DNA from: Gracilaria vermiculophylla
Taxonomy: Eukaryota > Rhodophyta > Florideophyceae > Gracilariales > Gracilariaceae
DNA: 21,765 bases
Assembly: GCA_019155205.2 (NCBI GenBank)
Contig: JAHNZQ020003147.1
Span: 1,447,685 to 1,469,449, forward strand
Direction of reading: 5' to 3'
The notes under the pieces are model-generated. The model saw only the letters and a list, made by a program, of their open reading frames with translations, was not told the DNA's origin and searched no databases. A program made the position numbers and the translations under genes. This document shows, piece by piece, positions 4,729 through 7,700 of the stretch (its first letter is position 1; every line of letters begins with the position of its first letter).

Positions 4729-7700
4729 TTTTTTAGGGTTTTCGGGTTCATGACTTGAAATTGTTGCTCTTACTAACACTCGATCACTGTGCCATAGATT
4801 CGAACATGCTGAACATATTGCATGCCTACATGTGCGGCACCACTGTGTTTGCCTTGAACCTCCCTTCTTTCTGTACTGTTTCCTATTATTACGAATTGTG
4901 TGACTGTACGAACACAAACAACAGTATGAAGGTCTTGATTTAACCTTTTCATGTGGTAGTGAGCGCGACAAACGTCTTTCTGGTTCATTAATCTTGTTGT
5001 ACTTTTCGGCAACATTCCGTTTGAACAACAATGGAGCAATAATGCTATCACGCGATTGCTCCTGCACACTTTGAACAACGTTTTGGCTTCGAGAAGTCTA
5101 CTTTGAACAGTCCTTTTGCCATAACACTTTGAATTCTTTTGCAAGTTGAAGAGCATAGTCGGCAAATGATGATGATCTTGAAACATTATGACGAAGCTCC
5201 CGATACCCGTACGTGTTTGTACCCTTACCGACGTCGTCAGGGAGCGCACCGTTATTTTTCGCTCGAGATAATCTATGTATCACTGCTGCATTGTTCACCT
5301 GGGCACACAAAAGTCTTCCAATGATGCTTACGATTGGGTTTTCAGAAGCATTTGTTAAACAAAGCGAGGTTAGTGCGCGACTGAAATCGTCAACGCCGCC
5401 TTTCAGGTGATTCCAATAGACTAGAACGGTGGGTGTGATCATACGAGCTGGTGGAAGTGTACCCTGTTGCCTGACTAGAGCTCGATACGCCTGGCTGAGA
5501 GTGTAGTAAGTTGCGTAAGAATGAAGATCTGTCGCATGAGAGGATCTCAGCATAGAATCGTATTCCTCAGGAATATGTCCGGCTTCTTTTCCAATCCAAT
5601 CAAAGGCAGTTGCACGTATTGCTGCTAATATATAGCTATAACTTCAAAGTATTGACGGAACAAACTCAATAAGAGCGACATAAATTATCTCCCCCATTCC
5701 ACAGTTACTTGCTTTTGCTACAACAAAGCACACAGTTTTTGTTTGAAGGCACATAGCATGGTGCAGTCACTGTAGTCGGTATTCCGTTGATGGAACCAGA
5801 TCATGAAAAACATTTGCAGCATCTGCAGAGCGCCCAAACTCACGAATGAAATTGGCAGCACCGTATCTAAGTAGAATATTTCTTGCAGATTCGATAGTAC
5901 GCAAAGCGGTCATGGTCTTGACCTCCAAAGCACATACTGTGTGACATTGTTCATCATCAATGTAAACCAGTAAACCGTCTGGACTGTCGGAAACTATTGC
6001 ATGAAATCGCGACGATACCAGCCCTACCGTCCTAATATAGTCAACGACAAGTTTGCGTTCTCCTTGATTCACCGTTGTTGAATTCCATATCTTGACATTA
6101 GAGCAATCTAAGAACTGCGGTAGAACCTTAAGGACCTGTGCTTCATTGAACGTATCTTCTTTCATTCCAGCCGTGCTGACAAGCGGCTTCATCACCCAGG
6201 AAACCAACGACATTTTCTACAAGTCCTCCCGTACCTTCTTCATTTTGGCCTGGATTTGTTGCTCCTCCGAAAGGGGCTCCAAACGAGTTTCATGTAGCGC
6301 AACAGCTCCGCTTTGAACATCAGCTTAGAGCTTGATGATTTTGTCAATGACTTCCCCTTTCCGTAGTGCGCCAGAAAGGGAACGACCAATACGGCTCATA
6401 GCTGACAAAAGATCCGCTTTTGTTTTCCTGTATAAGTCTGCAACGGTAGAGGACAATAGAAAAGCCTTAGTTTCTTCAAACGGACTTTCTACAGAAGCAG
6501 ACGCAGTAATCATATTAAGAACTTCACACAGACTTTGGAAGCGCAATCGTAAAAGGCTTTTAGCTTCTTCAGCAATTTCCGGGAAACGTGAGATACCGTA
6601 TCCTGTTAGCTTAACCTACACATGCTCCGCTAACGCGTGGATATTGATTTCATAGTTGTTTGCCAGAACGCGAAGGAAATTGCTCGTGGTTCGCGAAGTA
6701 AACTGAAAGGCCCTTGCCAAAAACCATCCCGGATCTTCGGATTGTAGCACAGTGATTTCAGTTACCCCGCCGAGTACTTGTAACACTTTTGAACTGGATG
6801 GACATGGTAGAAAGACGCCGTTTTGGTAAGGAGGGACATTATACTCTGAAACCCCCTCAACTCTCTTATGGGCACGATTAAACTCTTCAAGATATTCGCG
6901 GCACTTGAATGATCTAAATCCGGTCTTCGGTATTAAGGTGAACTTTGATGCTTTAAATATTGCATCGTTGTTGTGGTAAAGAGCAGCGAAACGCCCACTA
7001 AAACTCTCCCGGTATACAATAGCTTCCTTTGGGCGGCCAGACACAGAGTGAGGCTTACGACGGGCTGAGTAAATTTCCCGACAGCCCTTTTCACTGACTT
7101 CAAAACCTTTGTGCCGTTTTCGTAATGGTCCGTCGCCAAATATGAATGGATAGTCCAAAGAGCGTTTGTGTGTGCTTATCAAAGTAGCACCCAGTCTATC
7201 ATTCAGAAAGTCAATTGCACATTGATGGCTATAACCACGATCAGCGGCAAATGTATGGTAAGTCATCGGTCGAATAGGCCCCGTTGTTGGTACCCCTTGA
7301 AGCAATCGTATGAGCCTCTTTCATATATCGTTTGACTCTTCAGCTGTTCGTGAATAGTGACTGGCAAGAAAGACAGGGTTCAGAGCAGAACAAATGGCAT
7401 TATTGACTGGATCTAATGCCTTTTTTGGATTGTTCACGTGACTCACTGCCGTCAATTGGGCTACCGCTCTAGATCGTAATCTCTGATGATCTTCGTCGAG
7501 ACCGAGTATTGTTTGTTGCGAAATTAACAAGAACAGCCCATTGATTGCCGCAAGCTCATCTTCCAACTCCGTCAACAAAGAGTTCGCTCGAAGGGGTATA
7601 TTCGACCAACCACTACCACACTGTTCTACTCGCTGCCTTCTCCCAACAGTACAGCAGAGCGCAGACCACACTTGGTTATACCGTTCTCCAGTTATACCAA

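Follow-up and report, generated by a model that had tools for sequence, protein, structure and literature searches.

A dead piggyBac-lineage transposon of the red alga Gracilaria vermiculophylla with a predicted lambda-exonuclease-type nuclease between two catalytic aspartates of its transposase

The transposon piggyBac serves as the model of seamless excision and ranks among the leading tools of genome engineering. Its transposase uses three catalytic aspartates (DDD chemistry) and forms hairpin ends with TTAA loops, its insertion domain lines the channel for the target DNA, and its Cys-rich domain binds as a dimer to a palindrome at base pairs (bp) 17-33 of the left end (PMC7351741; this and the other papers cited by PubMed Central (PMC) number are cited from excerpts). 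Here, we describe a stretch of 21,765 nt from Gracilaria vermiculophylla (contig JAHNZQ020003147.1), in the following called the window, which harbors a transposon of 4.9 kb. It is almost certain that this element is a dead member of the piggyBac lineage with a complete PD-(D/E)XK nuclease of the lambda-exonuclease/YqaJ type between the second and the third catalytic aspartate (Asp2 and Asp3).

The initial annotation, made from the letters of the window, had claimed that the three catalytic motifs stand in order on one frame with a Cys/His domain behind them, and translation of the minus strand from position 7878 bore this out (Table 1). Re-reading of the frame gave exactly the stated distances of 85 codons from Asp1 to Asp2 and 617 codons from Asp2 to Asp3. 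The latter exceeds the distance in T. ni piggyBac (D346 to D447, PMC7351741) by 516 codons, where an excess near 515 had been stated, and exceeds that of five ordinary piggyBac loci from the same genome (122 codons) by 495 codons. SPDG, LEVK and YRLQ follow each other in nuclease order inside this excess, as had also been proposed, and the catalytic E, D, E-x-K and Q are all readable. The window copy itself is dead: seven stops interrupt its main frame, and two more fall in the N-terminal part, which is read in a different frame. This N-terminal part shows protein identities of 81.9% and 83.8% to two stretches of locus L018 and of 34% to locus L021 over 138 columns.

Three uninterrupted homologues of 1331-1391 amino acids cover 97%-98% of the window protein at 39%-45% identity and keep the same order of motifs, which excludes a chance arrangement. 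A eukaryotic transcript with 3 member sequences (P0007) is marked as a complete open reading frame (ORF) of 1372 amino acids, and a named relative stems from Agarophyton chilense (P0004). We refer to this group as family A. The search for intact relatives suggested by the initial annotation thus revealed transposase and nuclease in one uninterrupted frame. In the 44.8-Mb genome assembly (27 contigs), six loci matched P0007 before, in and after the nuclease by our own reading (contigs C9, C18, C14, C1, C4 and C17); no undamaged frame was seen among the family-A copies of this genome. The closest copy (L002/L018 on C18) is 91% identical to the window element. L021 on C14 is a diverged copy with 47%-60% protein identity in three stretches that cover both sides of the nuclease; its reading frame contains two stops, shifts once and includes a stretch of N. 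Between family-A lineages of this genome, conservation at codon position 2 greatly exceeded that at position 3 in all domains compared, among them the nuclease (0.68 vs. 0.35; 0.72 vs. 0.33). In the nuclease, this is the codon pattern of selection at the protein level. Between the window element and its 91% identical copy, all three codon positions were conserved to 0.88-0.94, the pattern of neutral decay after insertion.

The genome search with P0007 also matched loci L056 and L057 at 23%-25% identity, where Asp1, Asp2, the nuclease motifs, Asp3 and the Cys/His domain follow in this order. A protein search with L056 retrieved 29 proteins of 447-1301 amino acids (family B), some of them already annotated as YqaJ or piggyBac, with relatives in Gracilariopsis chorda (P0028, 89% identical, 68% of the query; P0045) and Chondrus crispus (P0054). 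By our own count, eight family-B loci of the genome match on both sides of the nuclease and within it; at a ninth (C18:2044) both outer parts match and the nuclease does not, as an internal deletion would give. One scan of viral contigs for family B confirmed no relatives. Identity between families A and B is only about 20%, and comparison of their profiles aligned 858 columns with an E value of 1.1e-34 (the printed alignment reaches motif I). The same position of the nuclease and the collinear profile match argue for a common origin of the two layouts.

We scored patterns for Asp1, Asp2, SPD, E-x-K and Asp3 in 56 proteins from the searches for both families. All five landmarks were present in order in 25 of the 56 (21 in a stricter first pass, before the patterns were widened), and none of the 25 complete sets showed another order. 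As far as inspected, the remaining 31 lack a pattern, are fragmentary, or represent gene models that are cut or carry internal deletions. In P0034 the SPD pattern caught a spurious earlier site, and the true site is that of the stricter pass. The distance from Asp1 to Asp2 was 85 in four family-A and 79 in 21 family-B proteins, that from Asp2 to Asp3 483-626. The five control loci, hand-picked from at least 118 matches to PF13843, the model of ordinary piggyBac, and apparently related to one another, showed distances of 89-90 and 122. These matches are spread over many contigs of the genome, and none of the five that were read has a gap of nuclease size.

In family B, structure comparison assigned the folds of piggyBac and of lambda exonuclease, one nested in the other; the nuclease of the window copy was assigned the PD-(D/E)XK lambda-exonuclease fold. 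In the family-B model, we take the nuclease to follow beta strands that would represent the piggyBac insertion domain and to precede the Asp3 helix. In our reading of the model, the window nuclease contains a helical insert at about 6180-6660 with a putative SAP-like sequence pattern. The family-B protein P0048 matched PF13843 at the Asp3 end with 29.1 bits and YqaJ just before it with 21.9 bits (cut-off 22). The alignment of family B (29 rows) retains Asp2 in 27 rows (one Glu, one gap) and Asp3 in 25 (four gaps). For the nuclease, the Glu of motif I is present in 25 rows (one Gly, three gaps), the Asp of SPD in 26 (three gaps), Glu and Lys of E-x-K in 27 (two gaps) and 26 (one Glu, two gaps), and the Gln in 26 (three gaps). 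In family A (15 rows with the window), Asp2 is invariant, and the 6-7 rows reaching the nuclease residues and Asp3 show no substitution there. Judged by these residues, both catalytic centers would be subject to selection and are probably functional in intact members; together with the predicted folds, they make catalysis by the nuclease of intact members quite likely. The C-terminal Cys/His pattern, readable in the window, L021, P0001-P0003, P0007 and most family-B rows extending that far, marks a candidate zinc-binding domain as in the piggyBac superfamily. P0047 and P0049 carry an extra Cys/His-rich module past the usual one (P0047 with Znf_SCAND3 at 26.9 vs. 27 bits, P0049 by eye). The architecture of this group is shown by the single frame, by its recurrence in two families that diverged deeply, by the two predicted folds and by the retention of both catalytic sets. 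The one-frame relatives and the nested predicted folds support the initial annotation of a piggyBac transposase with an inserted YqaJ-like nuclease, and no intact relative with a separate nuclease gene was found among the candidates of the protein searches (0.55-1.75 times the query length, so that small free-standing nucleases were outside their reach).

The terminal inverted repeats (TIRs) of the window element are 94.8% identical over 230 columns, and TIRs are also present in L021. Flanking 4-mers in other copies are TTAA/TTAA (L019), ATAA/ATAA (L020), TTAG/TTAG (L021) and TTAA/TTTA (L018). Since the duplications vary between TTAA, ATAA and TTAG and are mismatched in the window and L018, the insertion target looks TTAA-like and apparently looser than that of T. 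ni piggyBac. Termini of the type 5'-YY...RR-3' are present, with CCCC on both ends in the window, L019, L020 and L021, and CACC on one end of L018. Among 5000 single-base shuffles of the outermost 60 bp, none gave a palindrome as good as that at the right end of the window element (9-bp arms), and the same 20 bp were seen by eye in six of ten printed element ends (window right, both ends of L018, one end each of L019, L011 and L014). L019 (C12) and L020 (C17), also listed as L003 and L004, share an internal deletion of 2.1 kb from Asp2 to past Asp3 (junction at about window 7264/5156). We infer that this deleted form moved in trans and that the family was mobile, since L019 and L020 have the same junction and different matched duplications. 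P0006, from another source, shows by eye a different internal deletion. Family-B ends were seen near TATATCCCTAG; a clear duplication was not found there.

Several observations weigh against our overall reading of the element and its mechanism. The fold check proposed by the initial annotation gave the nuclease fold in the window copy and in family B, but the piggyBac fold in family B only, as the window model is of poor quality in its transposase half (predicted local distance difference test below 50 at residues 116-390). Foldseek on its own matched piggyBat at an E value of 0.27. With Pfam cut-offs of 22 bits for YqaJ (PF09588) and 22.4 bits for DDE_Tnp_1_7 (PF13843), YqaJ exceeded the cut-off in only one of 13 family-A proteins scanned (P0007, 25.3; many are fragments without the domain) and in four of eight family-B proteins (P0040, P0043, P0044 and P0046; 25.8-29.8, with P0046 best at 29.8). 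DDE_Tnp_1_7 did so in none of the 13 family-A proteins (best 18.2 and 19.2) and in one of the eight from family B. Pieces of the window (nine ORFs, six of them in the transposon) matched neither model, and no relevant PDB sequence match was obtained for either part with the family-A alignment, P0007 or six aligned family-B nuclease parts. The case for nuclease catalysis is built on conserved residues and a predicted fold. The window element is flanked by 4-mers with one mismatch (ATAA/ATAG), and the 9-bp palindrome arms occur in only one of its two ends, the palindrome being weaker in the left end and in L021.

Pfam scans of P0001-P0006 and PHROGs scans of P0001-P0003 matched little, since the curated models are distant from family A; the identification came from P0007, family B and structure comparison. 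PF09588 found no match in the window genome, where the domain is present by other means, so this search is insensitive here. A match of the window nuclease ORF to a surface-layer protein (E 1e-4) was discarded as chance, as no stretch passed alone.

With regard to mechanism, we propose that the DDD core would cut the element out of TTAA-like sites of 4 bp, as piggyBac does. The nuclease, placed beside the strands of the insertion domain, would be near flanking or target DNA and might act on DNA ends of the transposition reaction. Lambda exonuclease digests 5'-phosphorylated duplex ends in the 5' to 3' direction, and the donor break of piggyBac has 5' TTAA overhangs. Donor-end resection toward homologous repair is therefore the simplest proposal: most probably the nuclease would resect the 5' ends of the donor break and so lead to homologous copying of the element and not to seamless rejoining. 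Action on ends generated by excision has in our view somewhat better than an even chance; resection of donor ends in particular is tentative and has less than an even chance. Still more tentative is the full picture of an old and diversified piggyBac branch (at least two families, about 20% identical, in red algae and environmental sequences) with its own 5'-3' resection nuclease, in which the donor break is resected and homologous repair copies the element back. If true, a seamless cut-and-paste transposon would have become one that gains copies. The unusual excision or repair step suggested in the initial annotation is likewise a hypothesis. Identity and mechanism taken as a whole, we regard this as the best explanation, with modest confidence.

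The nuclease fold might instead be a structural or DNA-clamping enlargement of the insertion domain that binds flanking or target DNA, with its chemistry unimportant or lost. This would suit the target-DNA channel lined by the insertion domain of piggyBac (PMC7351741) and the family-B model, where the nuclease adjoins the strands taken for that domain. We consider it unlikely, as the metal-binding Asp and Glu, the Lys of E-x-K and the Gln are near-invariant in families about 20% identical, and structure alone needs not all of them. The same catalytic conservation is compatible with a substrate other than the donor break: the nuclease could open or trim hairpin transposon ends, clear failed intermediates or attack competing DNA. 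The first of these fits poorly, since piggyBac itself opens the hairpins that it makes and exonucleases of the lambda type require free 5' ends and not hairpins; no particular substrate is favored. For accessory nucleases of other DDE superfamilies, processing of 3' ends or intermediates was proposed (Dada, PMC3706591; KolobokD, PMC9587614), and we rate another substrate as rather unlikely here.

Two further explanations concern the identity of the element. The seven in-frame stops and the frame change of the window copy could suggest that decay or assembly has put two genes or insertions of separate origin into register; the uninterrupted single-frame homologues, the transcript marked complete and the second family refute such an artefact, whose probability is practically negligible. 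Membership in Kolobok, lineage KolobokE, is suggested by the common TTAA-type 4-bp duplications and the type of nuclease, and Kolobok is known from rhodophytes (PMC9587614). The window element has 5'-CCCC and not 5'-RR termini, its last catalytic residue is Asp3 and not Glu, and its nuclease lies between Asp2 and Asp3 and not downstream, so that this assignment is very improbable.

Table 1. Coordinates of the piggyBac-lineage element and its parts in the window.
Feature	Position	Strand	Basis or remark
Whole transposon, decayed copy, 4.9 kb	4012..8947	coding strand minus	TIRs; CCCC..GGGG ends; other genome copies end at corresponding bases
Left TIR	4012..4241		inverted-repeat comparison
Right TIR	8719..8947		bears 20-bp near-palindrome, bp 15-34 from end
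Target-site duplication, left flank, ATAA (TTAA-like)	4008..4011	+	copy comparison
Target-site duplication, right flank, ATAG	8948..8951	+	one mismatch to left flank
N-terminal region, ATG at 8720	7880..8720	-	other frame than main; two in-frame stops; protein identity to L018, L021
Transposase-nuclease main frame, 1073 codons	4660..7878	-	seven in-frame stops
Asp1 codon, LDEDH, residue 128	7495..7497	-	translated frame
Asp2 codon, AADRGYS, residue 213	7240..7242	-	translated frame
Asp3 codon, KGGVDD, residue 830	5389..5391	-	translated frame
Predicted nuclease fold, lambda-exonuclease/YqaJ type	5569..6732	-	model residues 383-770
Nuclease motif I, KEDTFNE (Glu)	6142..6162	-	alignment and translated frame
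Nuclease motif SPDG (Asp), residue 632	5974..5985	-	alignment and translated frame
Nuclease motif LEVK (E-x-K), residue 651	5917..5928	-	alignment and translated frame
Nuclease motif YRLQ (Gln), residue 700	5770..5781	-	alignment and translated frame
C-terminal Cys/His domain, zinc-binding-type, from residue 986	4780..4923	-	end approximate

Outside the element, the window contains an inverted pair at 1-478 and 9025-9501 that is 89% alike over 479 columns. An outer transposon bounded by this pair was rejected, as both of its arms are copies of one highly abundant repeat: 40 of the 43 listed matches to 1-478, the window's own counted, reach at least 93%, among 1802 first-look candidates. A near-perfect hairpin lies at 9887-9959 (36-nt arms, 100% complementary, with 1 nt between). 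Two genes of host type encode a TCF25-like protein (PF04910; 11781-13949, minus strand) and a sodium/hydrogen exchanger (PF00999; 14977-18951, plus strand). An ORF of 318 amino acids at 19334-20290 (plus strand) matches RNase H (PF00075, E 4.2e-9) and is a retroelement remnant or a host gene.

The initial annotation knew of no description of such an arrangement. For piggyBac, none of the papers listed from the open-licence PMC literature reported a transposase that carries a nuclease of the YqaJ or lambda type (subscription papers and Repbase reports were outside its scope), but parallels exist in Dada, KolobokE and ISL2EU. Databases already list individual proteins of the group under automatic names ('YqaJ viral recombinase domain-c...', 'PiggyBac transposable element-d...'), and therefore the parts have been seen before while the whole layout is, as far as searchable, undescribed. 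With a piggyBac branch that has a built-in lambda-type exonuclease, it can be asked directly how a transposon benefits from control over the repair of its own break, and uninterrupted members are available for expression.

With the piggyBac superfamily (T. ni piggyBac, 6x67; piggyBat, 9c0f), the piggyBac-lineage element described here shares the RNase H-like DDD core with the piggyBac fold, as predicted for family B. It differs by the 483-626 residues between Asp2 and Asp3 that hold the nuclease, by TIRs of 230 bp and by some matched duplications of ATAA or TTAG instead of TTAA. Compared to lambda exonuclease and YqaJ (PF09588; 1avq, 3sm4, LHK-Exo 3syy), the nuclease is embedded in a transposase and in family A has a putative helical insert. 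KolobokE is likewise a eukaryotic DDE transposon with a lambda-exonuclease-like PD-(D/E)XK nuclease, from a superfamily with TTAA duplications, but belongs to another superfamily, has its nuclease downstream of the transposase domain and ends with 5'-RR (PMC9587614). ISL2EU, also a DDE transposon with a YqaJ exonuclease-domain protein, is a member of the PHIS superfamily and encodes this protein as a second ORF in most autonomous candidates (PMC4482050), whereas nuclease and transposase motifs stand in one frame in 25 of the 56 proteins listed here. Dada of Laccaria and Ectocarpus has an exonuclease domain inside the transposase, after the second catalytic Asp; it belongs to another superfamily, and its nuclease is a DEDDy DnaQ-type 3'-5' exonuclease (PMC3706591), unlike the lambda-exonuclease fold that structure comparison assigned to the window and family B. 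Together with KolobokE, ISL2EU and Dada, the element suggests that DDE transposons recruited nucleases several times and at different positions.
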